The position numbers and the translations under genes are program-made. Below, piece by piece: positions 5,313 to 34,630 of a DNA stretch of 34,630 nt. The notes beneath the pieces are model-generated. The model worked only from the letters and a program-made list of their open reading frames with translations, was not told the DNA's origin and made no database searches. The DNA lies in NCBI GenBank assembly GCA_015493635.1, contig WGCU01000008.1:1-34630 (forward strand), in the 5' to 3' direction. The number at the start of each line of letters is the position of its first letter. The stretch's first letter is position 1. The stretch comes from Spirochaetaceae bacterium (GTDB lineage Bacteria; Spirochaetota; Spirochaetia; B11-G9).

Positions 5313-5326
5313 TTTCCTGTACCTCC

Positions 5327-6037: not shown

Positions 6038-6048
6038 GGTTCCTCTCC

Positions 6049-7802: not shown

Positions 7803-7819
7803 GATCCCCTCCATTTATG

Positions 7820-10898: not shown

Positions 10899-11285
10899 CT
10901 ATCGTGCTACCTGATGAATATACCTGAACAGAAGAATTCCCGCAAAAGCTCCTGCTATGGCAAAAACATTATTCAATACAAGATTTAACACAGCATACCG
11001 GTATTCACCATCAGCAAACAAGCTCACTGTTTCAAGGGAATAGGAAGAAAAGGTCGTAAAAGCCCCAAGAAATCCTATACTTAAAAGTGACTTGTAATTT
11101 TCATCAACAACAACATTGTTAAAGAGGGAGAATAAAAACCCGATAACAATTGATCCGATAACATTTACCGACAGCGTTCCGTAGGGCAATATTCCGCCCG
11201 AAATACTGTTGATATGTTTAGAAACCAGATACCGCAGGGGAGCACCGATACTCCCCCCGAGAGCAATAAAAAGAATTCCTTTCAT
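10899..11285 (-). CDS. crcB: CrcB/Fluc fluoride channel
   Basis: 128 residues with four membrane helices, the usual size of one subunit of the dual-topology dimer that exports fluoride across the inner membrane. Signature motifs are present: GGSIGAPLRYLVSK at the N-terminus, GTLSVNVIGSIVIGFL in helix 2, and GFLGAFTTFSSYSLE at about residues 72–86 (helix-3 break, Na+ site and Phe box). A single-copy gene implies a homodimer. The ATG overlaps the stop of the prolyl isomerase gene by one base (TAATG), so the two are translationally coupled. No fluoride riboswitch was found upstream of the operon. Confidence 0.95.
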   Translation of the reverse strand: MKGILFIALGGSIGAPLRYLVSKHINSISGGILPYGTLSVNVIGSIVIGFLFSLFNNVVVDENYKSLLSIGFLGAFTTFSSYSLETVSLFADGEYRYAVLNLVLNNVFAIAGAFAGILLFRYIHQVAR

Positions 11286-12235
11286 TAGAAATCAAGGAGT
11301 TCCACATCAAAAACAAGATAACTGTCAGGTGGAATAACACCGGGATAGCCCTGTTTTCCATACCCGAGTTCAGGAGGAATAATCAAGGTCCTTTTTTCAC
11401 CTTTTTTCATGGTTAAAAGTGCTTCGTTCCATCCCTCAATAACCTGCCCGACAGCAAAATCCGCAGGTTCTCCCCGTTTTACAGAACTGTCAAACACGGT
11501 ACCATCCAGCAGCGACCCTGTATAGTGAACCGTTACCTTCTGCCCCATGGAAGGAGAAGTGTCTCCGGAACCCTCTTCCTGAACAATATAACGTAATCCA
11601 CTGTCGGTAACAACAGCTTCCGGCCATCGCTCCTTGATCCCCGCAACTGCTTTTGATGCTTCTTTCCGGGCTTTTCCCGTGGCAGCCGCTGACGCATCTT
11701 TTACAAGAGCTTCAAAAGAATCTTTCGTTACAACAAACTTCTCAGCGTCAGCTCCCTTCCTTATAATAACAACTTCCTGAATCCTGTCTCCCTGCTGTAT
11801 GGCATTCACCACATCCATGCCGTCGATAACCGTTCCAAATACAGTGTGTTTGTCATCAAGCCAGGGAGTCTTTACGTGCGTAATAAAAAACTGGCTGCCG
11901 TTTGTCCCCGGACCGCTGTTTGCCATAGAGAGAACTCCGGGGCCGCTGTGCCTGAGACTTTTATCAAATTCGTCAGGGAATTTGTATCCCGGACCGCCGG
12001 TACCAGTCCCCAGAGGACATCCACCCTGAATCATAAAATTATCAATAACCCGGTGGAAGTTGAGTCCGTTATAAAAAGGAGTCCCTTCATCTTCCTTGTT
12101 GAGTATCCCTTCCGCAAGACCGACAAAATTCGCAACGGTCATGGGTGTTTTCCGGTATTCAAGATTTATAAAGATAGAACCCTTTTCTGTCTGTATTTCT
12201 GTATATAATCCATCTGAAAGGTCAGAAATATTCAT
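11285..12235 (-). CDS. Cyclophilin–FKBP fusion peptidyl-prolyl isomerase (dual-family immunophilin)
   Basis: A 316-residue protein with two different prolyl-isomerase domains. Residues about 10–165 are cyclophilin: [14 protein letters not shown] with the catalytic Arg, [18 protein letters not shown] and DDKHTVFG. Residues about 205–316 are [71 protein letters not shown]. An Ala/Lys-rich linker joins them. There is no signal peptide, so it should act in the cytosol on folding proteins. Cyclophilin-first fusions of this kind have been described in treponemes and a few other microbes. AGGAGG lies 6 nt before the ATG. It is first in the operon with crcB and DUF190. Confidence 0.93.
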
Positions 12236-18262: not shown

Positions 18263-18799
18263 ATGTTGTTGAAATGGATATTTAACCTTTTTAAAGTACT
18301 TAATTCAAATAAAAATCCGGGAGAAATTGCTGCCGGGTTTTCTTTCGGTTTGATGCTTGTCCTTATTCCCGGAGGCAATCTGCTCTGGGCGGTTCTCCTG
18401 GTGCTTGGCTTTTTTACACGGCTCAACCTGATGACTGCTTTTGTATTTTTGGGGCTGGGAAAAATCATTGTTCCGCTTATTGATCCGCTGCTGGATTCTT
18501 TCGGATTTTATATTCTTACGTTGAACCAGCTGCGTCATGTTTTTACAAAACTCTACAGCATCCCTCTTGTTCCTTTTACCGCGTTTAATAATACTGTCGT
18601 TATGGGCGGATTTGTCAGCGGAGTTATTCTCGCTTTGCCGATGTGGTTCCTGTTCCGCAGTTTTGTTGTTTTCTACCGGCTGAAGATCAGAGACAATCTT
18701 AAAAAAACAAAATTTGTCCGGCATATTACCAAACTCCCCCTGGCAGGAAAGATATCAGGAATGGTTAAAACGTACAGAAAAGTGACAGGAAAAGGCTGA
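18263..18799 (+). CDS. TIGR03546 family inner-membrane protein
   Basis: 178 residues with three or four membrane segments and a basic C-terminus (LKKTKFVRHITKLPLAGKIS). The N-terminal LFKVLNSNKNPGEIAAGFSF, then GLMLVLIPGGNLLW, is characteristic of the TIGR03546/DUF2062-like family. Family members occur in a small share of outer-membrane bacteria and are usually next to a TIGR03545 gene, as here, 5 nt downstream. Function is unknown; the pair is likely an envelope complex. The ATG lies 10 nt after a TATAAT box. Confidence 0.85.
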   Translation: MLLKWIFNLFKVLNSNKNPGEIAAGFSFGLMLVLIPGGNLLWAVLLVLGFFTRLNLMTAFVFLGLGKIIVPLIDPLLDSFGFYILTLNQLRHVFTKLYSIPLVPFTAFNNTVVMGGFVSGVILALPMWFLFRSFVVFYRLKIRDNLKKTKFVRHITKLPLAGKISGMVKTYRKVTGKG

Positions 18800-18804
18800 G
18801 CGGT

Positions 18805-20571
18805 ATGGGCAAAAAAAAGAAGAAGAAAAAGATTCTTCATACCGGAAAACTGGCAGTTCTTGGAGTGCTTATAGCTGCCACACTGGTTTTCAGTTTTTTC
18901 TTCAAGGATAAACTCATCTCCAGATATCTGGATAGAGGACTGGAAACAGTCCTTCAAACCCCGGTTGATATCTCAGCGCTTCACGCAAAAATTCTTTCAT
19001 CCCGGCTGACAATCGGCTCCCTTGCTGTTGTTGACAAAGATAATCCGGAAATGTACCAGTTTGTTCTGCATGCCGTCACTATCGATATAGACAGTGCCGC
19101 ACTTTTAAAGGGGAAGTTTATTATTGAGAAACTTGCGAGTACCGGTTTGGAAAAAGAAGTTCCCCGGCGGCATATTCAATTGAGAAGTACCGTCAGCACC
19201 CCTTCGAAACCTGCAAAAAAAGAGGTAACAGCTTCTCCATTCAAATTTCCTGTTATCTCCCTGAATCCGAAAGATATTATCAACAATCATAAAAAAGACT
19301 TCGCGTCATTTACCGTACTTGAAGATTCAAAAACAACGTTGGAAACGGCTTCGCAGCAGTTAAAAACAGATACCGAGGCACTCAATAATAAATTCAATCA
19401 GTTTAAAACCAAAACAGCCCCCCTTTTTACAGCAAAAATCTCCACTGTGCAGGAAGGGAAAAAACTCCTTGAATCTGTTACTGCGACGGTGAATGGTTTT
19501 AAAACAATCAGTGACAGCAGTCGGAATCTGTACACCGAAGTTAAGAGCGATACAGAACTTATTAAAAAAGAGAAAAACAAAATAAACAAAGCATTAAACG
19601 AAGATTTCAAAAGGATCGACTCTTTTATCGCGGAACCGGGAAGCTCGATAAAACATGCCGCGTCCGATTACGCACAAAATCTTCTTAAAGAGAAAACAGG
19701 CCGCTATTACACAGCAGTGCTGAAGGGTATTACAATACTTAAAAATCTTTCATCAAAAAATTCCAAGAAAAACAATTACAGCCGAAGAAAAGGGAGGATA
19801 GTACGTTTCCCTGAAAAAGAACTGCCTCTGTTCCTTTTAAAGGAAGCTTCCCTTACAATGGCTCAAGATTCCCGGACCATCAACATAGATATTGAGAATA
19901 TATCAAGTAATGCAGCCCTTACCCATGTCCCTGCAGCTTTTTCCATCAACGTTAAAAACAACCTGTCAGCCGCCTTACTTACAGGGTCCTATACTCAGAA
20001 CAATCCTGAAAGCGGAAAACTGAAAATGACAGGCACCCTTAAAAATTTCGACCTTGATAATCAGTCTGTTAAAGGGAAATACAATGCATCGGGTACTTTT
20101 TCACTGGTTAACGCGTCTGTTCTTACAGGAACGGCTGATATAAAACTTATACAGGCCCAGCTGCAGAATCCGCAGAAAGCACCCCTTATAGAAGAAATCA
20201 ATACTATCCTCGGCAGTTCGCCGAACACGGCACTGAAAGCTGTCTTTTATATTGATCCTGAGCGTTCGAAGATAACCGTAACCTCCTCTCTCGATTCCCT
20301 GATACAGGAAACGGTAAACAGGCAGCTGGCAGCTGTCTCTTCTTCCCTGAAAAAACGGGCCAAAAAAGAGTTTGAAGGGCGGATAAAACCTCAGATTTCC
20401 ACCTGGGATTCCAGCAGTTCGATTCTTAAAAATCTTTTCAAAGAAGAAAAGAATCTCAATATGGATATTACCGGCTATAATAAAAAGTTAGCAGCTGAAG
20501 AAGCCCGAATAAAGAAAGAGCTTTTAAAACTGTCAATCCCCGGTGCCGCCGGATTAAAACTGCCTTTCTAA
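18805..20571 (+). CDS. TIGR03545 family envelope protein
   Basis: 588 residues. A basic N-terminus (MGKKKKKKKILHTGK) precedes one membrane helix (LAVLGVLIAATLVFSFFF), so the bulk is periplasmic. A region at about residues 30–110 (GLETVLQTPVDISALHAKIL, LTIGSLAVVD) resembles the start of AsmA/Mdm31-like lipid-transfer proteins. Long helical stretches occupy about 160–310, and a beta-rich C-terminal half includes GKLKMTGTLKNFDLDNQSVK. This fits the TIGR03545 family, known only from bacteria with an outer membrane and typically paired with TIGR03546. AAGG lies before the ATG. Any role in moving lipids between membranes is inference. Confidence 0.82.
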   Translation: MGKKKKKKKILHTGKLAVLGVLIAATLVFSFFFKDKLISRYLDRGLETVLQTPVDISALHAKILSSRLTIGSLAVVDKDNPEMYQFVLHAVTIDIDSAALLKGKFIIEKLASTGLEKEVPRRHIQLRSTVSTPSKPAKKEVTASPFKFPVISLNPKDIINNHKKDFASFTVLEDSKTTLETASQQLKTDTEALNNKFNQFKTKTAPLFTAKISTVQEGKKLLESVTATVNGFKTISDSSRNLYTEVKSDTELIKKEKNKINKALNEDFKRIDSFIAEPGSSIKHAASDYAQNLLKEKTGRYYTAVLKGITILKNLSSKNSKKNNYSRRKGRIVRFPEKELPLFLLKEASLTMAQDSRTINIDIENISSNAALTHVPAAFSINVKNNLSAALLTGSYTQNNPESGKLKMTGTLKNFDLDNQSVKGKYNASGTFSLVNASVLTGTADIKLIQAQLQNPQKAPLIEEINTILGSSPNTALKAVFYIDPERSKITVTSSLDSLIQETVNRQLAAVSSSLKKRAKKEFEGRIKPQISTWDSSSSILKNLFKEEKNLNMDITGYNKKLAAEEARIKKELLKLSIPGAAGLKLPF

Positions 20572-20602: not shown

Positions 20603-20632
20603 TTAACAAAAAAAGATTTTTTGTGCTATAAT
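20603..20632 (+). promoter_or_regulatory. Promoter of the giant surface-protein operon
   Basis: TTAACA (20603–20608), an 18-bp spacer, then TATAAT (20627–20632) with an upstream TG at 20624–20625, so also an extended -10. Transcription should begin near 20639, leaving an unusually long leader of about 155 nt before the ATG at 20794. The spacer is an A/T palindrome (ACAAAAAA…TTTTTTGT). Confidence 0.65.
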
Positions 20633-20793: not shown

Positions 20794-23700
20794 ATGTATT
20801 TTATAAAAAGTAATGTAAAATATCTGCTTGTTTTCTTGTACTTGGTTTTAGCTTCTTTCGTATTTTCCCAGACAATAACAGTTAACGACGGAACCGGTTC
20901 AGATACAGACTGGTGGACCTCAAACACCACCTTCTCCGCCAACTGGAGTGATACTATAGATTGGATGGGTAAATATGCTACTGATAACAAGTATTATCAA
21001 TGTACGTTAGGATATTTTACTGGCTCCACTTGGAATAATTCTTCTGAATCTGTAATAGTTACGGGTATTTCTGCATTAGATATCCCGCCAAAGAATGTTT
21101 TGATAACAAAGTCTCCTTCTGGTGCTCCATTGAATTTGGCAGAAGGGAACCACTATATAATGAAGGTGGAAGCCTTTCATATTATGGTTGACAGCATATA
21201 TTTGATAAAAACTGGGTATTCCGACGGAGTAACAACCGACTTTACGCCCCCTTCGGTAACGGTAACCAGTCCCTCTGCTTCTGTTGTAACGTCCAGTACC
21301 TTTACCCTTCAGTGGTCGGGCAGTGACGCAGGGAGCGGTGTAGCCTCATACGATGTTCAGTACAAAACGGGAAACGGAGCGTGGCAGGATCTCCTTACTG
21401 CGGCAAGCAGTACAAGGTATCAGTTTACCGGAAATAACGGGTATACCTATACGTTCAGAGTCCGGGCCGCTGATGAAGCGGGAAACATAAGCGACTGGAC
21501 GCTCCCCCAGGCTCAAAGTACGGTAAGCATCAATGCGATGTCTCCCTCTGTCTCTTTAAGCGTAACCCCCGGTACCCTCTCATTTTCAGCAAATGAAAAT
21601 GAAAAGGGAGCTGATATTTCAATTCAGGCTACAGGCGGCAGTCTAACCGTAACGTCTGTAACTGAAAGCAGAAACTATCCGGGGTGGGGTACAGAAGATG
21701 AAATTCCGGATAACATGTCTGTCAGCATTACCGGAGGCAGCAGATATACGCTGCACCGGACCATCCAGCTGGACAACATCGCCCGGTCCAGGGCTCTCGG
21801 CAACGGAACGAAAGGCAGTTTTACCGTAACCTATACGGTGGAGGGGCAGGATTCATACGGTCATCCGGTTGCTGGAAATGTGAGCATTCCCGTAACAGTA
21901 AGCGGGGGGCTGTCTTCCAGTCTCTCTATAAATAATGTCACCATAGAGCTTCCCCCGTCTCCCTACTATGTAGGAGATACTGTGGAGAATGCCAGAGTTA
22001 CCATAGATGCTTCCGGATCAGGTACCGCCACCGGTCAGATCCTGGTGGATGATGACACATCATGGAGTTCAAATCCGGGATTTTCCGTAAATGTAAATAA
22101 TACGACAAGTTTTAATATAAACGGAACACTCCCAACCGATTCACCGGGGAGCCATACGGTAAAAGTAGAAATTACCGATCCGGTAACAGCTTCTGCGGAA
22201 GAAACCTATACCGTCTCATCTGAAACTCCGCCGTTTCCCCCGACAGTACTTACCCTCGTACAGGATGTCGCTGAACTGACAGATCTTAACGGTAATGCAG
22301 AAGCTGTCAACGGTGACACTTATAAAGAATTCCACTTTACCGGAACGGCGAAAATGAAGATATTTCCGCTGAAAGACGATAACGGGAATCCTACAATTGT
22401 AAATGATGTAACCGTTACTGAACTGGTCGTCCGGTATAATGATGACAACCCAACCAAGGCCAAGATCAGAGGCGGAACGGTAGAAAAAGAAGTTACCGGG
22501 GATGAGGTAATAGCGACGGTAGGGAACAGGTATCTGCGGGTTAAAAAGGTTTCCTTTACCGGACAGAAAAGCCCTGCTACCGATTTTTTAAGAATCGATA
22601 CAAAGCTTTACATACCAAAGCTCCATATGGAGTTTTTCAAGATCGGCGGACTGGTTTTAAAGACAGAAGGAATTGAAGCCAAAGCAGTCTCCGTCGCGGA
22701 AAATAAGGCCAAAACCTTCAACGCTTTCGGCATGGAGTTCCGAATTCACAATGTAGATGCTGAACAGGCAATTGTTGTTGGAAAAGATAAAGCCAATGAC
22801 CGGTATTATTTTACCCTCTCCGGCGGTATTGCCATGAGTGAAAAAAGCGGTACAACCAAAACCAAAAAGGAAATCACTACTTTCAAGGGGCTTACCTTCT
22901 ACACTGATGGAAATGTTGACGGAACCATCACTTTTAAAAAGAGTTTTGATATCATTCCCGACAAACTGACCCTTACCAAAATACAGGTTCAAAAAGAAGG
23001 GGATACGTTCAAGATGAAGCTGGGAGGAGAGCTTAAGAACCTGCCCTACCCTCTTGATTCTCTCGGTACGACCACTTTTGAATTTAAATTCGACAAGGAT
23101 GGAAATGCCGAAGGCCTTGTTGTTCCCATTCATGAGCTTCAGAACAACAACAAGGGACACGGGCTTGGTAATAATGACCAGACAGAATGGAATTTGGGAA
23201 TAGCCCAGATTGATATTACCTATCTTGGACTGTATCTTCAATTTAACGAGGGAGATTTCGACAAGGACCACAGTGAAATCCAGATCGGAATGGATCTGTA
23301 CCTGGATCTGAAGGATCAGGATGGATCCGACCCCTCTGACAGCGGGAAAAGAATCTCCTTCGGGGAACTGAACACGAATGGTGATTTTACCGGAGGAATC
23401 AGGATCTCCATGGATGGGGATGTTACCTGGCACCAGCCTACTGATGCAACGATCATTCAGCACAAGAAGCTGGAACTGGCGGCACTTACCATATCAATAG
23501 ACGGACTTGCCGTTGCACCGGATCCGTTCAGAATAATATTTACCGGCGGAATACTGATCAATCTTCAGGGTGTTGCGGGAGAAGTGGATTTTGAAAATCT
23601 GGCCATCGGTCTTGACGGCAGTGTTTCCAATCTCTCCGATGCCATTCAGGGAGGAATGCTCGACGTTGTAGATGCGGTTCATATCGAGGTGGATGATGTA

Positions 23701-26700
23701 GACTGGAGCAGTGATCCGGCTACACTAACCTTCCAGTCAGATGCCACTTCAGGGGAGGGAGAGGACCGTGCACCCCAAAAGTCGAGCAAGACGGTTGATG
23801 TCCAGAGCTATCTGCGGTTTATGGGTGCATCCATAAGCCTCGGTTCATCCGATGATCCTGTCATGAACGGTGGTTTTGATGAGCTTACATTTTACAAGCT
23901 TCAGAATGGTTCATTCGGCCTTGTTTTAAGCAATGCAACCCTTTCCACTTCCGGTGTTGATCTCCGGGCGGATATAGAATACCAGGACGCTCTTTTACGG
24001 GTTGCGGGAGAAGTGGATTTACCCAACGATATTTCGGCAGTAGCGGTAGGGAAAATAGGGAGCCAGAACGGAGAGCCTACAATGGGCATTTTCATAGCTG
24101 CTTCAGGGCTGTCAATAGCTGTTGGTCCCGGAGTTTTTCTGAACGAGATAGGAGGCGGTGTTTTTATCAATCCTGTACAGGAGGACGTGGAGCTCGTCAG
24201 GCATATAGCCCGGTTTGAGCGGCCTGAATTAAGTGATGATATTACCAGCAAGCGTCCGGGAGGTGCAGAGAATCCAGGGTCCTTTGCCATAATGATTCTG
24301 GGAGGGGTCTATATATCAGCACCTGATTTTGTTTACGGAAGAGCCCTTGTTACTATAACGGCTAATTACTTCAATCTTGATGCAGAGGTGGAGTGTCTTG
24401 ATGGAATGCTGGATGGAACCGCCTACCTTGCAATCGGCTGGAATCCTTCCTATGGGGAGGGAAATGTCGTTGTTAATATGGACTACCTGTCCATTATTGA
24501 AGGATCGGGCAGCCTGGAATTCTATGTCTATTCAAAAGACCTCTGGGGCGTTGCGGGAGCATTTAATATCTCGATGCTGGGTCATGATCTGGCATCGGGA
24601 AGCCTTTTTGTGGGGCCTCCGGGTTTCATGCTGGAAACTTCTGTCAGTTTCGGGATCGATATGAAGTTCATTTCCGGTTCGCTTACCTACGGTGGAATGT
24701 TCTGGTACTACAAAGTACCGGATCCGGATACATGGGGAGCATACGTAAAAGTGGCAGCCGAAGGTGATTTCCTTGACGGACTTTTCTCCGCTTCAGCCAG
24801 CCTCGAAGGGGCTCTCATAGGCTCACCGACATTCCTCATATACGCAGTGGGAAGTTTAAGCGTAAAGGTATGCTATGTAACGGTATTCAACGGCAGTCTG
24901 TGGGTTTCTGTAGGAGAAAACGGCTTTCATGGAGGAAAGGGCCGGAACGCCAAGTATGACGGGATAATTGAAGAAGCCCGGAATATGGCCGATGCCATGA
25001 ACCAGGCAAAGGAGGAGCTCAATCAAGCCATGAATGACGCAGAACTGGAACTGACACATCTAAACGCAGCCCAGAGGGATGCAGCAGGGCTTGCTCTTGT
25101 CGAAAGATCGGGAATACTCGGTGGTTTGGTTCAGATTGTATTTACATACAATGAGTTAAACCGGTGGGATCCTGAGGGACTGCCTCCGGCACTTCGTGTT
25201 GTCTACGACCGGATTTATGGTCCGGGCCAGCAGAATCTTGTTGTTGCCAGGACACGGCTGCAGCAGCTGGTAAATAAGATAAATCATGATATTTCAAATC
25301 TTGAAACACTCCAGCAGGAAATTGCAGGTAAAATAGATCAGTATGAAGATATTCTCGTAGAAGAACTTCCCTCTGTTCAGGATATTGGTAATCTCCAGAA
25401 TCCGTTCCAGGGAAAAGATGAAAAAACGGTTACCATCGGCGGAACAACAAGAACAGTTCAAAGCGGTTTTAGAATAAACGAGAGTGCTGCTGAAAATCAG
25501 CAGAATGCGCTCCTTAGTGTACGGGAAGATTTTGCCAAATACCAGGACGCCTTTATGAAAGAGGCTGGAAACATTGATGCCAAACTTCAACAGCTTGATG
25601 AGATACTTTTTCAGTCCGATCAGAATCTTTCAGAACTGGCAAGTCAGTATGGTAATGTTTATTCAGAAATGGGTAATTACATAAATAATTTTGTTGCTTT
25701 CCAGGGTAAAAATTACCAATTTGCAGAAAGAAGTCTGGAACTGATACAGCATCAGGCATCAGAAAGTCAGATACATCAGACATCAGAAAGCCAGATCCGT
25801 CAGGCTCTGACTGATAAGGATTCTTCCCTTTCTGTCAGTGCTCTTAACAGCTGGAACAATGACAGAATCAGTTTAATCCAGGCGCTCATTCAAGCAGGGA
25901 GTACAGGATCGGGAGAACAGCCGGAACCTTACAATCCTCCGCTGGACCTCTCACCCTATGGATTATTTCAGGAAACAGGGGTTGAGCTATGGTGGAATAT
26001 CCCCATTGCAGGTTTTACAAAATCAAAAACCCTTTCCCTGGAGCGGCGGACACAGGCAATAGCTTCTTTCAAGCAGAGTGCTGCTTCTTTCAGAGGAAAA
26101 TGGTCGAGTGCTACAAATTTAATTAATAGAATATATGAAAGAAAGTCAGCCCTCTATAATATTCTCTATGAGATATATGACGAACTTTCTGAATACGGAA
26201 CAGGGATGATAGGTGTTGATTCTTCGGGAAATGCTTCCGCTTTCGGCGGTTTTGCAGGGACAGGGCTTGCTTTCAGAACGAGCGCAGTTGCTTCAGCGGT
26301 TTCAGGAAAAGGAGAAATGCTTCCTCCCGGTACAACGGCACCTGATGAACCGACCATAGGGCCCTTGAGACCTGCGGTTCCGGTAAAGAAAAAACCGGGA
26401 TTTAAAAAATTCGGCTCTCACGGAATGATTCAACCGCAGAATGAAGGAACCGGAATAATAGCTTTCGGCCCGGCAGTAACCGTAACCCCGCCGGCTGCAG
26501 TTTCCGGCATAAGCGGAAACAGCTTCAATAACAGTACTATAAAACTTGGTGTCTCATCCATGGGGCTTCCCAGTCAAGCAGTAATCGACAGAAACGCTTC
26601 ACAGCCTGCTCAGAATACAAAACCAACTTCCTGGGTTCCTGTAGCAGTCTACTTTGACGGTAAAAGAGCAGAAATTGAACCCTATCTTGAGGTTCCCCAT

Positions 26701-28815
26701 GTAGAAAATTTTACAGGACAGATAACAAGTCAAAATCAGTTTACCGCTCTTTTAACGGCGGAATTCTCAGGCAGCCATCCTGTCGGCGTCGTAGAGTATG
26801 AGTACAAACTGGAACCGGTACCCGGAGTGCAGACAACCGGGAATGTATCAAACACTCAGATTTCCATGGGCGGAGGAATCCCAGCAATCGCACAGCTGAC
26901 TCCGCTGCTAATCTATATTCCGTGGTTTACCCTTGGAGACGCCACATCCCTTACTGAACCATTTTTCCCTGACATTAATAAGGCAGGAGAGTATTATCTT
27001 TATGTAAAGATACGGGGAGCAGGAGGGAAAAGCATCATAAGGAGAGCACGTCTGAATTTGAATTACTTTAATCCCCAGGCAGACCACAGTCCGGTTTCAT
27101 CAAGTATTGATACAAGTGATACAACACCTCCTTCTAAACCGGTTGTTACCCTTGAAGGCCCTTATACCTACAGAATTGACAAGATATATGCAAAATGGGA
27201 TTCAGAGGATCTGGAATCAGGAATACAGGGATATAAATATGCAGTAGGGACATATAAAAAACCGCAGAATCTTGCCAGTACACAGACAGCCTATGCAGGG
27301 GCAGCTGTTCCCGGTCAATCTAATACACTGGAAATACTGTCGGGTTCCGAAACACCGGTACAGCCGCAGGTTCCTACAGATATCCTCGGCTGGCAGAGTG
27401 CAGGAGGAAGGAAGGAACTGAACATAACGGGGCTCAGACTTATGCAGGGGAAATCCTATGTTGTAAGTGTCAGAGCTGAAAACGGTGTCGGATTAAAGAG
27501 CACAGGCAGTTCTCCACCGATACTTGTGGATACCACAGCACCACATGGCCTTTCCATAACAACACTGGAACAGGTAAACGCTGACAACCATGCAAATTCA
27601 GTACACTTTGTCTTTAACCCCGCTACTGATGAGGAATCAGGGATAGCTTCCCATAGCTTTGCTGTCGGGACCAGCGAAGGTTCGGATGATCTTGTTTCAT
27701 GGCAGGATTCATCCGGGGCGGAAGCAACCATAGTCAATATTCCGCTGCCCCGGGGTTCCACAGTCTTTGTCACAGTGAAAACAGTTAATGGTGCAGGTCT
27801 TGGAATACAAACATCTGATAGTATTGATCTCGCATACACTGATCAAAGTCCACCTCAGGAACCTGTCCCGGTTAGTATTTCCGGAAGGTTCATTTCTGAT
27901 CCGGGAAAATTAAGCATCGGCTGGATGCATGTGGATGATCCGGAATCGGGGATTGTTGGATACTCATACGGTATAGGAACATCCCGGTATTACCCTGATG
28001 TTGTCCCATGGAGCAGTGTAGATACCAACGAAAACGCGTATGTTCTCAACCAGGGATCAAAACAGGGAAAAAATAAACAACTTGATTATCATCTGGACCT
28101 TGAGACACTCCATCTTTCAAGCGGGAAAGCTTACTACATTCTTGTCAAAGCAAAGAATGGTTCAGGTCTTGAGTCAACAGGAGCTTCAGAACCTGTTGTA
28201 GTAGATACTACCCCTCCCCATGATACGGAGGTACAGGCATCGGAGGAATCAACAGCGAGAGACCATTTTGACATAACGGTTAAAGCAAAGGATGAAGAGT
28301 CTGGAATAGCATCTTACCGTTTTGCAGTGTGGGATGTGCAGGAATCTTCTTACGATGATGAAATCGGAGAACCTGGAGCATTTTCCATTTCGGGCGGATT
28401 TACAGCACCGGGCACGTTCAGCGGGAATCCGGATGTACAGGGTATAATTCCTGAAACAGCCGCAGGCAGTACTGTAAATATGAATACTGAAATACCTCCA
28501 TGGGCTCAGGATGTCGATTTGTGGGGGCAGCCTAAATTTGAATCAGACTGGGAGAATATTTCATCCGGCGCTCTGCCTGAAGAAATAAATCTTGCAGTAA
28601 AAATCTCAGGATTTTCAACCGGTCTTGGAGCATTGTTCGGCGGGGGCTACAGTCTTAAATACGGCAAGAGCTACAGAATTAAAGTCTGGGTCCGCAATGG
28701 TGCGGGACTGGAGAAAGCCGCTGGAGCGGTTATTATAAAAGTAGTCAGAAAGCTTCCGGGGAAACACGAAACAAACAAGGATTCAAATTCAACCATTCCC
28801 AAGGGAGGATTCTGA
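20794..28815 (+). CDS. Giant exported multidomain protein (2673 aa), candidate surface adhesin or structural protein
   Basis: A signal peptide (MYFIKSNVKYLLVFLYLVLA…SFVFSQ) exports a 2673-residue chain. Order: unique N-terminus; FN3-like domain at about 150–245 (GSGVASYDVQYKTGNGAWQD, RVRAADEAGNIS); Ig-like domain at about 247–372; CARDB-like domain at about 373–483; a beta-rich middle at about 484–1385 with Gly/Asp-rich strands, possibly a solenoid; a helical, coiled-coil-prone part at about 1387–1800 (MNQAKEELNQAMNDAELELT); a Pro-rich linker at about 1845–1900; and four FN3-like units starting near 2112, 2248, 2352 and 2473, each with an 'ESGI-x-x-Y-x-x-AVGT'-type core. No protease, sortase or autotransporter motif was seen, and the end is not a barrel. 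It heads a four-gene operon with a barrel protein that may place it on the surface. Overall family unrecognised. Confidence 0.8.
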   Translation: MYFIKSNVKYLLVFLYLVLASFVFSQTITVNDGTGSDTDWWTSNTTFSANWSDTIDWMGKYATDNKYYQCTLGYFTGSTWNNSSESVIVTGISALDIPPKNVLITKSPSGAPLNLAEGNHYIMKVEAFHIMVDSIYLIKTGYSDGVTTDFTPPSVTVTSPSASVVTSSTFTLQWSGSDAGSGVASYDVQYKTGNGAWQDLLTAASSTRYQFTGNNGYTYTFRVRAADEAGNISDWTLPQAQSTVSINAMSPSVSLSVTPGTLSFSANENEKGADISIQATGGSLTVTSVTESRNYPGWGTEDEIPDNMSVSITGGSRYTLHRTIQLDNIARSRALGNGTKGSFTVTYTVEGQDSYGHPVAGNVSIPVTVSGGLSSSLSINNVTIELPPSPYYVGDTVENARVTIDASGSGTATGQILVDDDTSWSSNPGFSVNVNNTTSFNINGTLPTDSPGSHTVKVEITDPVTASAEETYTVSSETPPFPPTVLTLVQDVAELTDLNGNAEAVNGDTYKEFHFTGTAKMKIFPLKDDNGNPTIVNDVTVTELVVRYNDDNPTKAKIRGGTVEKEVTGDEVIATVGNRYLRVKKVSFTGQKSPATDFLRIDTKLYIPKLHMEFFKIGGLVLKTEGIEAKAVSVAENKAKTFNAFGMEFRIHNVDAEQAIVVGKDKANDRYYFTLSGGIAMSEKSGTTKTKKEITTFKGLTFYTDGNVDGTITFKKSFDIIPDKLTLTKIQVQKEGDTFKMKLGGELKNLPYPLDSLGTTTFEFKFDKDGNAEGLVVPIHELQNNNKGHGLGNNDQTEWNLGIAQIDITYLGLYLQFNEGDFDKDHSEIQIGMDLYLDLKDQDGSDPSDSGKRISFGELNTNGDFTGGIRISMDGDVTWHQPTDATIIQHKKLELAALTISIDGLAVAPDPFRIIFTGGILINLQGVAGEVDFENLAIGLDGSVSNLSDAIQGGMLDVVDAVHIEVDDVDWSSDPATLTFQSDATSGEGEDRAPQKSSKTVDVQSYLRFMGASISLGSSDDPVMNGGFDELTFYKLQNGSFGLVLSNATLSTSGVDLRADIEYQDALLRVAGEVDLPNDISAVAVGKIGSQNGEPTMGIFIAASGLSIAVGPGVFLNEIGGGVFINPVQEDVELVRHIARFERPELSDDITSKRPGGAENPGSFAIMILGGVYISAPDFVYGRALVTITANYFNLDAEVECLDGMLDGTAYLAIGWNPSYGEGNVVVNMDYLSIIEGSGSLEFYVYSKDLWGVAGAFNISMLGHDLASGSLFVGPPGFMLETSVSFGIDMKFISGSLTYGGMFWYYKVPDPDTWGAYVKVAAEGDFLDGLFSASASLEGALIGSPTFLIYAVGSLSVKVCYVTVFNGSLWVSVGENGFHGGKGRNAKYDGIIEEARNMADAMNQAKEELNQAMNDAELELTHLNAAQRDAAGLALVERSGILGGLVQIVFTYNELNRWDPEGLPPALRVVYDRIYGPGQQNLVVARTRLQQLVNKINHDISNLETLQQEIAGKIDQYEDILVEELPSVQDIGNLQNPFQGKDEKTVTIGGTTRTVQSGFRINESAAENQQNALLSVREDFAKYQDAFMKEAGNIDAKLQQLDEILFQSDQNLSELASQYGNVYSEMGNYINNFVAFQGKNYQFAERSLELIQHQASESQIHQTSESQIRQALTDKDSSLSVSALNSWNNDRISLIQALIQAGSTGSGEQPEPYNPPLDLSPYGLFQETGVELWWNIPIAGFTKSKTLSLERRTQAIASFKQSAASFRGKWSSATNLINRIYERKSALYNILYEIYDELSEYGTGMIGVDSSGNASAFGGFAGTGLAFRTSAVASAVSGKGEMLPPGTTAPDEPTIGPLRPAVPVKKKPGFKKFGSHGMIQPQNEGTGIIAFGPAVTVTPPAAVSGISGNSFNNSTIKLGVSSMGLPSQAVIDRNASQPAQNTKPTSWVPVAVYFDGKRAEIEPYLEVPHVENFTGQITSQNQFTALLTAEFSGSHPVGVVEYEYKLEPVPGVQTTGNVSNTQISMGGGIPAIAQLTPLLIYIPWFTLGDATSLTEPFFPDINKAGEYYLYVKIRGAGGKSIIRRARLNLNYFNPQADHSPVSSSIDTSDTTPPSKPVVTLEGPYTYRIDKIYAKWDSEDLESGIQGYKYAVGTYKKPQNLASTQTAYAGAAVPGQSNTLEILSGSETPVQPQVPTDILGWQSAGGRKELNITGLRLMQGKSYVVSVRAENGVGLKSTGSSPPILVDTTAPHGLSITTLEQVNADNHANSVHFVFNPATDEESGIASHSFAVGTSEGSDDLVSWQDSSGAEATIVNIPLPRGSTVFVTVKTVNGAGLGIQTSDSIDLAYTDQSPPQEPVPVSISGRFISDPGKLSIGWMHVDDPESGIVGYSYGIGTSRYYPDVVPWSSVDTNENAYVLNQGSKQGKNKQLDYHLDLETLHLSSGKAYYILVKAKNGSGLESTGASEPVVVDTTPPHDTEVQASEESTARDHFDITVKAKDEESGIASYRFAVWDVQESSYDDEIGEPGAFSISGGFTAPGTFSGNPDVQGIIPETAAGSTVNMNTEIPPWAQDVDLWGQPKFESDWENISSGALPEEINLAVKISGFSTGLGALFGGGYSLKYGKSYRIKVWVRNGAGLEKAAGAVIIKVVRKLPGKHETNKDSNSTIPKGGF
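25750..25797 (+). repeat. 24-bp in-frame tandem duplication in the helical part of the giant gene
   Basis: Two 24-bp units (25750–25773, 25774–25797) differ at three bases and encode HQASESQI then HQTSESQI, followed by a partial third (RQA). An 8-residue unit is near two heptad turns plus one and would keep helix register only approximately. Confidence 0.85.
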
Positions 28816-30809
28816 TGAAAAAAGCTTTGTTTTTCATATTCATACTATTGCTGAATTCTGCATCATATATTTTCGCCCAGAAAGCACCTCCGGCGTATGT
28901 ACTGCCTTCCGGTGATAAAGTGATAATTGTTCTCGGCGACACTTCCAGAAGTGTTAGTGCCTTTAATGTTTACAGAGCCGATAAAAGTTCCGGGAATTTC
29001 AAAATTCTTAATAAAGATCCCATTACTATGGTTAATGATCCGTACAAAGCAGCGCAGCTAATGGGAAGTGACTTTGAATGGATTTCCAAAAAGATGGGTT
29101 CAGAAGATCCCGGATTTGTATATAACAGGCTGGCTGCAGATAGAAATACAACCCTGGCGCTTTGTCTTATCAGTCATGGATTAAGGATGGCAATGGGAAG
29201 AACCTATGTAGACAGAAAAGTTGTAAAGGGGAAGACCTACAGATACAGAGTGGTATTACTGAATGTTCTTGGAAAAGAGATAAGCAGGGTAGAAAGGAAT
29301 GTAAAAGTGGGGATACTGCCGCTGCCCAAAAAACCTTCAAGTCTGACAGCGGACCCCGGTGACGGTAAAGTACTGCTGAAATGGAAATATCCCCGATACA
29401 GTGGAGGTGAAAAGGATCTGACGGTGGGTTTTATTATGTACAGGAAGGAAGAAACCGGAAAATTCTTGCGCATTACCAGAGCACCGATCCTCAGGATAGA
29501 GGGACTTTTTTCATACATTGATGAAGCAGTAAAAAACGGAGTTTCCTATACCTACGCAGTGGAAGCTGTAAACATGATAGGGAATAAGAGCGAAAAAAAT
29601 TATTCCAAAACCGTTAAACCTGTAGATAAAAAACCGCCTCTCGTACCTGTCGGTTTAAAAGCTCTGGACAAAAAAGAAGGGGTATTACTGCTCTGGAAGA
29701 TATCCCCTGAAACTGATGCTGCTTATTATAATGTGTACAGAGGCAAAAGTTTAAAAGGAACATTTGAAAAGATAAACAACAGTACCATTCCGATTGCAAA
29801 TCCTAAATTTATTGATACATCAGCTGTAAGAGGTGTTGTCCATTATTACAGGGTAACTGCAGTAGATAAAAGCGGGAATGAAAGCCCAAAGTCAGGCCCC
29901 GCATCCATAATTCCAAAAGACACAGAACCTCCACCGCCCATAAAGGGATTAACGGCAGATGTGGATGCTGACAAAAGGTACATTACGGTATCCTGGGATG
30001 CATTGGATGTTCCCGATCTATCAGGATATTATATCTACAGAGGCGAAAGTAAGGACAGACTGCTGAGGATAGTAAAAGATCCTGTTATTCCTGTGTCATT
30101 TACTGATACCGGCTACAAGAAGAAAGGGCTTCGTCCGGGACGGAAATTCTGGTATGTAGTTACCGGGGTTGATACATCAGGCAATGAAAGTAAAAGGATT
30201 TTTATTGAGGTTATCATGCCTGATAAAGTACCGCCGCCGCCGCCTTTCTATCTTTCTGCCAAACCTGCAGATACTGGCAGCGTTTTATTAATATGGCAGC
30301 CGTGTCTTTCGAGAGATCTGGATAAACACTACATATACAGGGAGGACGACCGTACCTTTGTTAAAATAAAAGAGCTCGATAAAAAGACTTCTCAATGGGA
30401 AGATAAAACTGTTGAAAAAGGAAAACTCTACCGGTACCGGGTAACAGAGGTGGATACTTCAGGAAATGAAAGTAAACCCTCCAGGGAAGTAAAAGTGATT
30501 CCGACGGATATAACAGCACCTGCAGCTCCGGAAGAATTAAAAGCTGTTATCGGGAAATGGGGGATAAAACTAAGCTGGAATGCTTCTCCAGAAAATGATG
30601 TAAAGGGATACAATGTGTACAGTTTACCTCCGGGAAATGAAAATTGGCGGCTTACCGCAAAGATGATAAAATCAGAGGAATACTTTAACAGATGGGCTAA
30701 AGCAGGCACATCCTATGCTGTTTCAGCAATTGATACATCCGGCAATGAAAGTAAAAAAACCAAGGTGAGCACTAAAAAGGCTGAAGATAAAAACGAGGTA
30801 AAAAAATGA
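28815..30809 (+). CDS. Exported protein of tandem fibronectin type III domains
   Basis: 664 residues. Signal peptide MKKALFFIFILLLNSASYIF, then one degenerate FN3-like unit (about 25–165, with an inserted loop) and five clearer FN3 units starting near 172, 270, 370, 475 and 570. Each begins with a Pro-rich linker and a Leu-x-Trp strand (VLLKWKYP, VLLLWKISP, ITVSWDAL, VLLIWQPC, IKLSWNAS), has a central 'Y-x-x-YR' strand and ends in 'VDTSGNESK'. The end is Lys-rich (KKAEDKNEVKK). This is a binding or spacer protein for the periplasm or surface. GGGAGGA precedes the ATG, which shares one base with the stop of the giant gene (TGATG), so the two are translationally coupled and probably stoichiometrically linked. 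Confidence 0.85.
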   Translation: MKKALFFIFILLLNSASYIFAQKAPPAYVLPSGDKVIIVLGDTSRSVSAFNVYRADKSSGNFKILNKDPITMVNDPYKAAQLMGSDFEWISKKMGSEDPGFVYNRLAADRNTTLALCLISHGLRMAMGRTYVDRKVVKGKTYRYRVVLLNVLGKEISRVERNVKVGILPLPKKPSSLTADPGDGKVLLKWKYPRYSGGEKDLTVGFIMYRKEETGKFLRITRAPILRIEGLFSYIDEAVKNGVSYTYAVEAVNMIGNKSEKNYSKTVKPVDKKPPLVPVGLKALDKKEGVLLLWKISPETDAAYYNVYRGKSLKGTFEKINNSTIPIANPKFIDTSAVRGVVHYYRVTAVDKSGNESPKSGPASIIPKDTEPPPPIKGLTADVDADKRYITVSWDALDVPDLSGYYIYRGESKDRLLRIVKDPVIPVSFTDTGYKKKGLRPGRKFWYVVTGVDTSGNESKRIFIEVIMPDKVPPPPPFYLSAKPADTGSVLLIWQPCLSRDLDKHYIYREDDRTFVKIKELDKKTSQWEDKTVEKGKLYRYRVTEVDTSGNESKPSREVKVIPTDITAPAAPEELKAVIGKWGIKLSWNASPENDVKGYNVYSLPPGNENWRLTAKMIKSEEYFNRWAKAGTSYAVSAIDTSGNESKKTKVSTKKAEDKNEVKK

Positions 30810-32695
30810 GTGTAAGACAGTCCGGATATGCTCTGGGTATTTTTTTAATCGTTATTTCAGCCATAACGGTCTACGGGGATGTCAAGATAGTAAGAAAACT
30901 GCCGGACACTTCAGTCAACCAGGCAAAAGCGGTCTGGTCTGCTTCGGTTCCGGATGCAAAAAAAGAGAATTCTTCTTTCGGGAAACCAAAACTTTCCGGC
31001 AGATTGTCTTTCGGTGGATCCGGCGGTATTGATCTGAACATGAAAGAAAAGTATGATTTTTTTACCGATTCAAAGCTTTCATTTCTGCAGCCCTTTGGAA
31101 CATGGGGAGTCATGCAACTTTCTGCTGCCGCATTCAGGAAAAATATACTAGGAGGGCTGTCACAAAAATACATCGGTGATCTCTTCTTTAAAATATCTGA
31201 TTTGTCCCTGAAAATCAAAGGGATATATGATGATAACTCAGATACTGTAGATGAGATACTAAGGGGAAATAAAAACCTCAATCTTGATGCTTCTTTAAGT
31301 ATCGGCTTCCTGGATACACTACCCATCATTATAAGCTACAACCATGTATCAGGATTAAAAACAGAGGATGCAAACGCGGAATCTTCAGGTAACGAAGTAA
31401 TAAGTTCGCATACAGAAAGTGATAAGGCAAGACTGGAAATGGCAGGAATTGCCGGTAATTTCGGCCTTAGTTTTTTTACTGCTTTACAAAACCAGAAGGA
31501 TATGCTCAATGACGTCAACAGTATATCTTTTTCAAACAATATTTCTATTACGTCACCGCTTATCGGTTTCCTAAAAATAAGAGCTTCGATTTCACCTGAG
31601 TACGACAAGGTTGAGTATGTAAGTGCTTCAAATACAGTAGCTACAACTGCTCTTAATTCTGAACTGGGATTCAATATCCCTGTAAATAAGGAGCTGCTGC
31701 TTGATATTTACGGTGGAAGAATTGATTCATGGGTATCCAGAGAAGGTCCAAATTCCGGAATATCCGGAATAGATTACAATCCATACAGTGCAGCATGGAC
31801 TGCAGGAACAGGGATTGCCTATAAAAATGACAATGGGTTGGAAGCAGATTCAAAATATAAAATCAAAACGGGGGCCGGATTGTTCGATCAAGATCTTACA
31901 GCCTCCAGCAGTTTTAGGGGCAGTGAAGAATCTTTTCTCAGAGATGCTGAGCTTAAAGGTGAATTTGCCCAACAGTATGGTGAAAATACCACACTGAATT
32001 CAAACAAGTTAAACTGGTCCGCCGGAACTAAGCTTTCTCCTGCAGAGGAAATGCTTCTTTCCGCTTCGTATCAGGGAAGTGTTTCCGCTGAAGGGAAATT
32101 TTCAGATTCATTCCTTTCCTGGACTAATGCCGGCAAGGCATCATTTATACATTCACCGAGCACTCTGGTGGATTACCAGCTATCAGCATCGCTTACAGAT
32201 ACGGACAACCAGAATGCAAGTCTCGTTAAACAGCAGTACGGCGGTAAAATTTCTTTTAAACCCCGGAAGGATCTCAAGGAATATCTTTTTGGAATTGGTG
32301 AAGATATTATGCTTTCCAATGGAATTACCGCAGACGAGAACACGGTTATTTCTACCATGATCTATACTATGGGTATACCTATTCTTGATTTTCTTAAGAC
32401 AAGGTACAATCTGAAATGGGAGTGGACTGCAGCAGAATATTCTCCTTCCGAAAACAATTTTCAGCACCTTTTCGGTTTAACACTGTCAGGGAGCTCTCTT
32501 CCTCTTACATTTACTACTGACTATCTTTTAAGCCATGGAAACAGGGGAGTACGTCATGACGTTAATTCATCTCTTTCGGTACCCCTGTGGGGGTCGTTTG
32601 CTGTTGAAGGTCGGTTTTCTTTAAGTTATTATAAAGAGGATGGTATTAAAAAGATGCCTTTCCTTATTGGCATAAATGCTTCGTATCAGTTTTAA
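30806..32695 (+). CDS. Probable large outer-membrane beta-barrel protein
   Basis: 629 residues. A hydrophobic leader (GYALGIFLIVISAITVYG) is followed by DVKIVRKLPDTS and then a long series of alternating strands rich in Ser, Gly, Tyr and Phe (LSGRLSFGGSGGIDLNMK, LSWTNAGKASFIHSPSTLVD, NAGKASFIH, SLSYYKEDGIKK). The chain ends FLIGINASYQF, with the terminal Phe typical of outer-membrane barrels. Its length would allow roughly 20 or more strands. It has no POTRA or usher signature. The ATG overlaps the FN3 gene stop by four bases (ATGA) and is preceded by GAGGT. It is a plausible outer-membrane anchor or pore for the two exported FN3 proteins encoded just upstream. Confidence 0.72.
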   Translation: MSVRQSGYALGIFLIVISAITVYGDVKIVRKLPDTSVNQAKAVWSASVPDAKKENSSFGKPKLSGRLSFGGSGGIDLNMKEKYDFFTDSKLSFLQPFGTWGVMQLSAAAFRKNILGGLSQKYIGDLFFKISDLSLKIKGIYDDNSDTVDEILRGNKNLNLDASLSIGFLDTLPIIISYNHVSGLKTEDANAESSGNEVISSHTESDKARLEMAGIAGNFGLSFFTALQNQKDMLNDVNSISFSNNISITSPLIGFLKIRASISPEYDKVEYVSASNTVATTALNSELGFNIPVNKELLLDIYGGRIDSWVSREGPNSGISGIDYNPYSAAWTAGTGIAYKNDNGLEADSKYKIKTGAGLFDQDLTASSSFRGSEESFLRDAELKGEFAQQYGENTTLNSNKLNWSAGTKLSPAEEMLLSASYQGSVSAEGKFSDSFLSWTNAGKASFIHSPSTLVDYQLSASLTDTDNQNASLVKQQYGGKISFKPRKDLKEYLFGIGEDIMLSNGITADENTVISTMIYTMGIPILDFLKTRYNLKWEWTAAEYSPSENNFQHLFGLTLSGSSLPLTFTTDYLLSHGNRGVRHDVNSSLSVPLWGSFAVEGRFSLSYYKEDGIKKMPFLIGINASYQF

Positions 32696-32721
32696 CTCTG
32701 CTGGGAAATTGGTAATTAATT

Positions 32722-34347
32722 ATGTTTAAAAGCCCGAAATATCTTCTTATGCTGCTTGCAGTTTTTGTAGGTATTGTTATTTTTGGAGGATTCCTTTTTA
32801 CTAAAAATAAGAGGGAAAATGAAAGCAAACAGCCACCTGCTTTCATTACAGATACACCTCTCTCCATAGGAACTCCGTCAAATGTTTCTCTCGGCAGAAA
32901 ACTCTTTTTTGAAAACAAATTCGAAGAAGCTGCAAAGATGTTCGAACTGGCCATGAAGGAGGGGAATATTCAGGGCAGGGATCTTGCGTTGTTGGGGATA
33001 AGCTATTACAGAACAAAAAAAGCAGCAGAGGCTGAAGAAATACTTGTAAAAGCTGAAAAAAAATATCCTAAAGAGCCGCTGATATATATTGGATTAGGTT
33101 ATGTTGAATTCGGTAAAAAGGATTACCAAAAATGTCTTGCTTTTTTTGAAAAAGCAAAGAAGATATCTCCAGGTCTAAAAGAAGCTGTCAATGGAATTGC
33201 AGCTACCTATATAAATCTAGGTGTTGAAGCATACGCTAAAGGGAACGTTGGTAAATCAGAAGAATTCTTTAAAAAAGCGCTCTCAGCAAAACCGAATTCA
33301 GCAGAAGCACTTACAAACATTGGGATATTGAAGCAGGATGAAGGGAATAGTAAGGAAGCTGTATCATTTTTTAAACGAGCTGATAAGTACAAACCAAACG
33401 ATCCGAAAATTTTGAAATTTCTTGCAGAATCCCTTAAGGAAACTGATGGGCTCGGCAGTGTTGAATTATTGGAGACCGCTGAAAAACTTTCAAAAGCCAG
33501 TCCCTTTGATCCTTACCCATATGAGCTCATGGGCAGGATATATGAAAAAAAAAGTAACACCAAAAAAGCTCTTGAGGCTTTTTCAACTGCCTATGGAAAG
33601 GGAAGCGAAGATCCCTATATTTATTACCGGCTTGCAGAAAATAGTTTTAACGGTGGAGATAATAAAAAAGCTGTATCATTATTATTTCTTGCTGTAGGTA
33701 AATCTGTCCACAGAATAGGCCAGATACAGGTAGGTGCTGCAAAAAGAATGGATGAAAGGAAGGGGAAACTCGAAAAGGAAGATATTAAAGCTTTAAAGAA
33801 GTATTCAGACCTTCTTGATGAGCCTAAAAAGGTACTTGATCTGTCAATTTCTCTTCTTCATAAAGTAAGGGGATCAGATAAACTGTTTGAAGCAGATATA
33901 GAAAAGCTGTTATCATGGTATCCCCATAGTGTAGATATACGGGTTGCATTTGGGAAACTTTTAGAAGACGAAAAAAAATGGGACAGAGCACTGAATGTTT
34001 GGAATGAAATAGCAGAAAAACATCCTTATAATTACACAGTACATGTCAGCCTAGCAAACATTATTGCGAAAGTAGGAAATTATGAAAAAGCCGTATTAGA
34101 ATGTAAAAAGGCAATTGATATTGACAGCAAAAAAAAAGAGGCTTATGACCTTCTCATTGGAATTTACTTATCCAACAAAGATAAAGAGAGCCTTTTTTCA
34201 TTTTTAACAGACCGCTTTGAGTTAAATAAGTATAATGAAACCCTTGTTAAAGAAATGATTAAAGCATATGAGATGACTGATGAAACAGAAAAAGCATCCC
34301 AGATGAAAGGGTGGCTTACCCACCTGGAGGATTTTAAAAAGAAATAG
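32722..34347 (+). CDS. Membrane-anchored TPR-repeat protein
   Basis: 541 residues. One N-terminal membrane helix (YLLMLLAVFVGIVIFGGFLF) anchors a periplasmic or cytoplasmic helical body. TPR units are clear at about 55–240 (GRKLFFENKFEEAAKMFELA, YIGLGYVEFGKKDYQKCLAF, NLGVEAYAKGNVGKSEEFFK, ALTNIGILKQDEGNSKEAVS), near 265–330, and again at about 420–541 (HVSLANIIAKVGNYEKAVLE). TPR solenoids hold complexes together or guide substrates. It is the fourth gene of the operon, 26 nt after the barrel gene, with only a weak ribosome site. In this setting it is a likely assembly or periplasmic chaperone factor for the surface proteins, by inference. No terminator is evident after it. Confidence 0.83.
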   Translation: MFKSPKYLLMLLAVFVGIVIFGGFLFTKNKRENESKQPPAFITDTPLSIGTPSNVSLGRKLFFENKFEEAAKMFELAMKEGNIQGRDLALLGISYYRTKKAAEAEEILVKAEKKYPKEPLIYIGLGYVEFGKKDYQKCLAFFEKAKKISPGLKEAVNGIAATYINLGVEAYAKGNVGKSEEFFKKALSAKPNSAEALTNIGILKQDEGNSKEAVSFFKRADKYKPNDPKILKFLAESLKETDGLGSVELLETAEKLSKASPFDPYPYELMGRIYEKKSNTKKALEAFSTAYGKGSEDPYIYYRLAENSFNGGDNKKAVSLLFLAVGKSVHRIGQIQVGAAKRMDERKGKLEKEDIKALKKYSDLLDEPKKVLDLSISLLHKVRGSDKLFEADIEKLLSWYPHSVDIRVAFGKLLEDEKKWDRALNVWNEIAEKHPYNYTVHVSLANIIAKVGNYEKAVLECKKAIDIDSKKKEAYDLLIGIYLSNKDKESLFSFLTDRFELNKYNETLVKEMIKAYEMTDETEKASQMKGWLTHLEDFKKK

Positions 34348-34482: not shown

Positions 34483-34630
34483 GTAAGCGTCAATTTAACC
34501 GCACCTTTTGCCAAAGAATAAGTTGAAGTAAGATCTCCCATTGAAGGAGATAAAAATGCAAAAATACAGCAAAGAAGAAAAAGAGAAACACTTAAAGCAG
34601 TGGCGAAGTAGCGGCCTTAGCGGTCAAGAG
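34483..34630 (+). mobile_element. Left end of an IS66-family insertion sequence (partial)
   Basis: The end begins GTAAGCGTCAATTTAACCGC; a GTAAGCG start is the hallmark of IS66-family terminal repeats. It is followed after 73 nt by the first small gene of the element. IS66 elements normally make 8-bp target duplications, so the eight bases before 34483 (34475–34482) should recur past the right end, outside the window. Confidence 0.75.
34556..34630 (+). CDS. IS66-family accessory protein, N-terminal fragment (cut by window end)
   Basis: The first 25 codons (MQKYSKEEKEKHLKQWRSSG then LSGQE) fit the helix-turn-helix accessory protein encoded first in IS66-family elements, which typically has a 'W-x-x-SGLS' motif and helps transposition. 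GAAGGAGA lies 6 nt before the ATG. An IS3-type OrfA is the main alternative, but the terminal repeat favours IS66. The rest is outside the window. Confidence 0.7.
   Translation, partial: MQKYSKEEKEKHLKQWRSSGLSGQE

Follow-up and report, generated by a model that had tools for sequence, protein, structure and literature searches.

The window, by which we mean the whole 34,630-nt stretch of DNA that was analysed (contig WGCU01000008.1 of a Spirochaetaceae bacterium), carries close to its end four plus-strand genes. The first encodes a giant exported protein (20794..28815; 2673 aa, acidic with a net charge of -121, and with 3 cysteines), the second a six-unit FN3 protein (28815..30809; 664 aa, with a signal peptide and basic, net +34), the third a predicted outer-membrane beta-barrel (30806..32695; 629 aa, ending ...ASYQF) and the fourth a TPR protein (32722..34347; 541 aa, predicted to be periplasmic, with an N-terminal hydrophobic segment). 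The giant, FN3 and barrel genes are joined by overlaps of 1 and 4 nt, and 26 nt separate the barrel gene from the TPR gene; every coordinate given for these four open reading frames in the first-pass annotation, together with their lengths, overlaps and strands, proved correct. An N-terminal hydrophobic signal is present on all four proteins. Within the 222-nt gap that precedes the giant gene we found a sigma-70-like promoter sequence, TTAACA-18-TATAAT with a TG before the -10 element (20603..20632, + strand), which is a consensus match only and the top-scoring plus-strand site in the region (11/12). The leader starting from it would measure ~160 nt, and no Rfam family was found in the leader before the giant gene. 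The promoter-like site, taken with the stop/start overlaps, is compatible with one operon.

Two genes matching TIGR03546 and TIGR03545 lie directly upstream (18263-20571, + strand), the latter match being under the cut-off yet nearly full-length, in a protein whose N-terminus also matches DUF748 weakly; they were rejected as members of the cassette, as they do not adjoin it in the second complete copy described below. On the other side, the contig ends at position 34630, and an open reading frame at 34555-34630, starting MQKYSKEEKEKHLKQWRSSGLSGQE, runs off this end. It resembles the beginning of an IS66-type accessory protein, and a repeat is therefore the probable site of the contig break.

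The giant begins with a hydrophobic signal peptide (20794..20871, + strand), likely cut between ...VFS and QT judging by its sequence. It had been annotated as an FN3/Ig protein, a description that does not hold for most of its length: a single FN3 domain exceeds the Pfam cut-off (aa 158-232, 21265..21489; PF00041, 37 bits against a cut-off of 25), and the FN3-like units at the C-terminus (aa 2111-2673, 27124..28812), the final part of which is the region recognisable in genome G035, are sub-threshold. Between them lie a core of 910 residues belonging to no known family (aa 481-1390, 22234..24963) and a segment that appears helix-rich and coiled-coil-like (aa 1391-1830, 24964..26283), and neither FN3 nor Ig profiles matched anywhere in aa 481-1830. 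Searches of Pfam, NCBIfam, PDB and PHROG with the core returned no relative except one sub-threshold CBM_3 match, and AsmA, TamB and DUF748 gave no sequence match to it at E up to 10. Likeness of the core to DUF6603 proteins was also considered, and no Pfam match bore it out. An AlphaFold model of the core, built from three rows, reached a pLDDT of 31 and was unusable. The PHROG tail and Hoc matches are confined to FN3/Ig-type regions, and so we draw no phage origin from them; viral contigs contained no relative of the core or the barrel, and plasmids none of the core.

All six FN3 units of the 664-aa protein can be recognised by eye, as the earlier annotation had it, and the whole protein scores 46 bits against the Pfam fn3 cut-off of 25. 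Its first unit harbors a conserved insert of ~57 residues (aa 72-128, 29028..29198, + strand), DPYKAxxLMGSDFxWI...DRNTTLALCLISHGLRMAMGRTY, which found no relative in PDB and is a candidate interaction site. The 541-aa protein passes the TPR profile cut-offs with strong matches (E 1e-27). It had also been proposed to be a membrane anchor, and its N-terminus in the window is indeed TM-like; the corresponding N-termini in genomes G035 and G054 and at locus L003 read as cleavable signals, leaving a conserved anchor unsupported.

The 629-aa protein had been called a probable barrel, a call that a non-barrel prediction would have refuted; the prediction obtained favours a barrel, at moderate model confidence. 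An AlphaFold model from four rows (pLDDT 56.7, with poor confidence at residues 166-286) contains ~30 amphipathic strands, whose residues alternate between inside and outside with a mean z of 8.9 relative to within-strand shuffles, a test that takes its strand limits from the model and is not fully independent of it; a model-free test gave a weak excess (3.6% of windows vs 1.9% in shuffles, sd 1.2%). The best Foldseek matches, at low TM-scores of 0.2-0.34, were to large barrels of the outer membrane, LptD and FimD among them; PelBC and a polysaccharide secretin were also matched. Sequence profiles from Pfam, NCBIfam and PDB identified no known exporter barrel family; of three weak matches to PDB profiles, the best (E 0.008) covered 36 residues of Lom, an outer-membrane protein. 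The final phenylalanine is kept in all four copies that we found, and we favour, on the strength of the model, assignment to the outer-membrane barrel class, though to no particular family. Ahead of the strands lies a peptide conserved across classes (KIVRKLPDT..N...A.W; 30875..30961, + strand), a candidate periplasmic docking peptide.

A scan of genome contigs with the giant uncovered a complete copy in a Spirochaetales metagenome-assembled genome (locus L003 of genome G401), in the same order of giant, FN3, barrel and TPR genes, the proteins measuring 2878, 718, 658 and 536 aa, respectively. It is flanked on one side by genes that we named by eye as a LacI-type regulator, a sugar ABC transporter and a beta-glucosidase, and on the other by an unrelated gene on the opposite strand. 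Genome G035 belongs to a second class of the phylum and has the genes in the same order again; only the C-terminal ~170 residues of the giant are seen there, the FN3 gene is interrupted solely by a run of N, 540 nt separate the barrel and TPR genes, and a sugar-kinase-like gene (named by eye) lies beside the cassette. A fragment at a contig edge in genome G054 comprises the C-terminal part of the barrel followed by the TPR gene. The genes flanking the cassette differ in all four copies, and those in the window and in G054 are not sugar genes. The first-pass annotation would have been refuted had the four genes failed to co-occur in other genomes, and they do co-occur: the unrelated flanks and the kept order mark them as the unit, and an order kept across two classes of the phylum makes their adjacency exceed chance.

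The set is rare. Of 393 genomes sampled from the phylum, the barrel profile matched only the window's genome (G000), G035 and G054, leaving 390 without a match, and within the window's own family seven relatives gave no match to the barrel profile and have no giant. When a full-length profile of the giant was searched over the phylum, the matches apart from G035 were short FN3/Ig cross-matches. A Guaymas Basin metagenome-assembled genome (G400) contains the core of the giant; no barrel was found in this assembly, which is fragmented. The four genes are, then, a discrete, rare and patchily distributed cassette, and we found no literature describing it in a search that reached few subscription journals. 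One further candidate carrier of the giant, G293, has an open frame of similar length, and was rejected since this frame adjoins an Rhs-like giant. A genome of the same class has two adjacent giant genes of Ig/FN3 type (L020:5441-19900), the second of them Rhs-like, which matched the giant profile through their Ig/FN3 repeats only.

Comparing the window with G401, we found the core to be the most conserved part of the cassette, at 84.9% identity, exceeding even RpoB (78.9%), and followed by the helical segment (75.6%), the FN3 protein (66.0%), the giant's C-terminus (65.3%), the TPR protein and the giant's N-terminus (59.7% each) and the barrel (54.3%). Fourfold-degenerate sites were identical in 30.8% of cases in the core and in 33.1% in RpoB, with ~25-26% expected from composition; these sites being near saturation, the conservation of the core reflects selection rather than recency, and means that the core is under strong purifying selection.

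The history of the core departs from that of its hosts. In eight housekeeping proteins (1429 columns) identity was 80.8% between G401 and G400, 69.2% between G000 and G401 and 67.9% between G000 and G400, and in the housekeeping tree G401 joins G400 and G000 joins G001 and G002. The core reverses this pattern, with 84.9% identity between G000 and G401, 76.0% between G401 and G400 and 73.6% between G000 and G400. Likewise, the residues shared by G000 and G401, by G000 and G400 and by G401 and G400 numbered 84, 66 and 250 in the housekeeping proteins, and 140, 37 and 59 in the core. These comparisons suggest an old horizontal transfer between the lineages of G000 and G401, which would account both for the reversed pattern of the core and for the absence of the giant from the closer relatives of G000. 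Alternatively, in this comparison of three sequences, the G400 copy of the core may have evolved faster. That the whole cassette was transferred we infer from linkage, the G400 data covering the core only.

What might such a cassette do? Our leading reading is that the locus serves specifically to export one giant protein or to display it at the surface, and to this we give a probability of roughly 45%. The giant would cross the inner membrane by Sec. In the periplasm the TPR protein would then handle it together with the basic six-FN3 rod, possibly through pairing of opposite charges between rod and giant; the ~30-strand barrel would export it or hold it at the outer membrane, and the giant would finish as the subunit of a fibre or layer that is displayed at the surface or released. 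Of its parts, the 910-residue core would be the constant one, needed for structure or assembly, and the FN3-like ends, which vary more, would face outward or serve in docking. Gene order and linkage are observed and the barrel is predicted; formation of a complex, the role of the barrel as exit or anchor, the surface location of the giant, charge pairing and secretion are all steps that we infer.

Several observations agree with this proposal. The gene order is kept in L003 and G035, and that of barrel and TPR in G054, among unrelated flanks; the overlaps and the promoter-like site are as expected of one operon; alternation is strong across the 30 strands of the barrel model, which matches outer-membrane folds. 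The giant is acidic and the FN3 protein basic in both complete copies (-121 and +34 in the window, -122 and +30 in L003; the partial FN3 protein of L007 also has a net charge of +30). The core lacks a known family, and its slow evolution argues for an element that self-assembles or contacts a machine. Against it stand the low TM-scores of the barrel, in which no exporter is recognisable by sequence; instead of passing a 280-kDa protein, this barrel may serve as a porin or receptor. Also against it are the truncated view of the giant in G035, the 540-nt gap in the same copy, the core of G400, with no barrel found in that fragmented assembly, and the basic charge of the FN3 protein, which could instead serve envelope or wall binding. 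Moreover, apart from its signal peptide the giant has no recognised signal for sorting or translocation. The roles in a surface filament, adhesion or cell-cell contact that had been put forward for these genes are guesses; the extreme conservation of the core leaves room for a structural fibre but counts against an adhesin of the usual, rapidly evolving kind.

The lone signal peptide would also suit a giant that never leaves the periplasm and serves there as a scaffold or tether. The N-terminal peptide of the barrel and the FN3 rod would link it to the outer membrane, and the TPR protein would sit on the inner side; we regard this arrangement as unlikely and still worth serious thought. The core is conserved as a component of an internal machine would be, and this, the conserved peptide preceding the barrel and the TM-like N-terminus of the window's TPR protein speak for it. 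However, the strong acidity and few cysteines of the giant would fit secreted giants, the periplasm is narrow for a 2673-aa rod unless this is aligned with the cell axis, and a core envelope scaffold would not usually show so patchy and apparently transferred a distribution.

A large barrel beside a TPR protein is also the layout of glycan exporters, and the cassette might export an exopolysaccharide or other polymer through a barrel and TPR pair of the AlgE/AlgK or PelB type, with the giant and the FN3 protein binding or organising a glycan sheath. The TPR protein does match the PgaA, BcsC and PrsT models, and PelBC and the polysaccharide secretin are among the fold matches of the barrel. These matches of TPR protein and barrel are generic, though, those of the TPR protein being made through the repeats and far under the curated cut-offs, and no glycosyltransferase or polysaccharide synthase was found in the cassette, beside it in the window or in the flanks of L003, L007 and L008, and so this reading appears improbable. 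Hardly more can be said for the uptake of nutrients or particles, in which the barrel would be a large porin or receptor, the giant and the FN3 protein would capture a polymer and the TPR protein would couple to transport: the sugar ABC transporter and beta-glucosidase beside L003 and the sugar-kinase-like gene beside G035 hint at it, but the neighbours in the window and G054 do not, no catalytic or carbohydrate-binding domain is above threshold and no TonB-dependent receptor family was matched, making it a poor prospect. That the four genes are neighbours by coincidence, FN3 and TPR proteins being common and sticky in searches, is largely refuted by an order kept between classes while the flanks change, by the overlapping genes and by FN3, barrel and TPR proteins that are specifically similar near full length across copies.

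Returning to export or display, we compared the cassette with known systems. Profile-library searches failed to find the hallmarks of autotransporter, two-partner or type IX pathways, in agreement with the first-pass annotation. As in two-partner secretion (TpsA/TpsB), a gene for a giant exported protein adjoins one for an outer-membrane barrel; however, FN3 and TPR partners are added here and the barrel has ~30 strands rather than 16. Moreover, neither Pfam nor NCBIfam detected a TPS (haemagglutination activity) domain at the giant's N-terminus, and the barrel gave no POTRA/Omp85-type (TpsB) match, its N-terminal ~60 residues being too short for POTRA domains. No autotransporter (type V) translocator barrel family matched the giant, the C-terminus of which is FN3-like. 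Type IX/SprB-type giant adhesins likewise join a giant multi-domain FN3/Ig-repeat protein to a large outer-membrane barrel, but the cassette has no PorV-type gene, and neither the giant nor the FN3 protein matched a type IX sorting domain (TIGR04183 type); the same library did detect a sorting domain just above the cut-off and a PorV-family protein at another locus, L084. Exopolysaccharide exporters (AlgE/AlgK, PelB, BcsC, PgaA) share the large barrel and periplasmic TPR protein, and have no counterpart of the giant and the FN3 protein. The Glt gliding complex of Myxococcus also combines several envelope proteins, including barrels and the TPR lipoprotein GltE, but it has no giant partner and the cassette has no inner-membrane motor gene; the GltE match of our TPR protein (48 bits against a cut-off of 225) involves TPRs only. 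Finally, Slam surface lipoprotein assembly modulators pair a TPR region with a barrel, but one of 14 strands, whereas here a barrel of ~30 strands is encoded by a separate gene and the giant is not a lipoprotein; the TPR_Slam match is sub-threshold (24 bits against 35.2).

We raise, as a tentative and rather doubtful proposal, that the cassette is an undescribed outer-membrane export and display system. Its giant substrate would be built on a core of new, almost invariant fold and would be served by a dedicated barrel of ~30 strands, by the basic FN3 protein as adaptor and by the TPR protein as chaperone; environmental spirochaetes would have exchanged the whole set as a cassette. If display is its function, it would represent a new means by which a diderm brings a 280-kDa protein to its surface or keeps it there. 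The core and the barrel constitute two families matching nothing in the libraries searched, and an exported region conserved like RpoB is an unusual thing to find in a locus that is patchy and seems to have been transferred, and speaks for a precise structural role. The four-gene set, with the barrel as its marker, can be tested for in uncultured environmental spirochaetes.

A different kind of locus emerged from the FN3 protein. Its profile matched 86 genomes of the phylum, mainly through generic FN3, and the strongest matches (families f23, f32 and f41) were rejected as members of the cassette, as they belong to a locus that has neither its barrel nor its TPR protein and is PorV-linked where tested (L084); this PorV-linked cluster of other families is separate from the cassette. 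In L082, L083, L084 and L085, genes for two proteins of ~340 aa, an FN3 protein of ~1000 aa and a PorV-type barrel of ~310 aa accompany one for a giant that has FN3 units and reaches ~3.3 kaa. L084 has a barrel above the PorV-family cut-off, and its FN3 protein just exceeds the cut-off for type IX sorting; its giant has a cyclomaltodextrinase-like region. Together these features suggest a type IX-like surface use of starch in spirochaetes.

Elsewhere in the window, the minus strand encodes a 316-aa protein in which cyclophilin and FKBP domains are fused (11285-12235), a dual-family immunophilin. On the same strand, at 3999-7814 and adjoining a CHASE2-cyclase gene, a FecR-domain protein (5327-6037) with weak likeness to the leptospiral proteins Lsa33 and LipL45 is flanked by open reading frames of 437 and 430 aa without a Pfam match.
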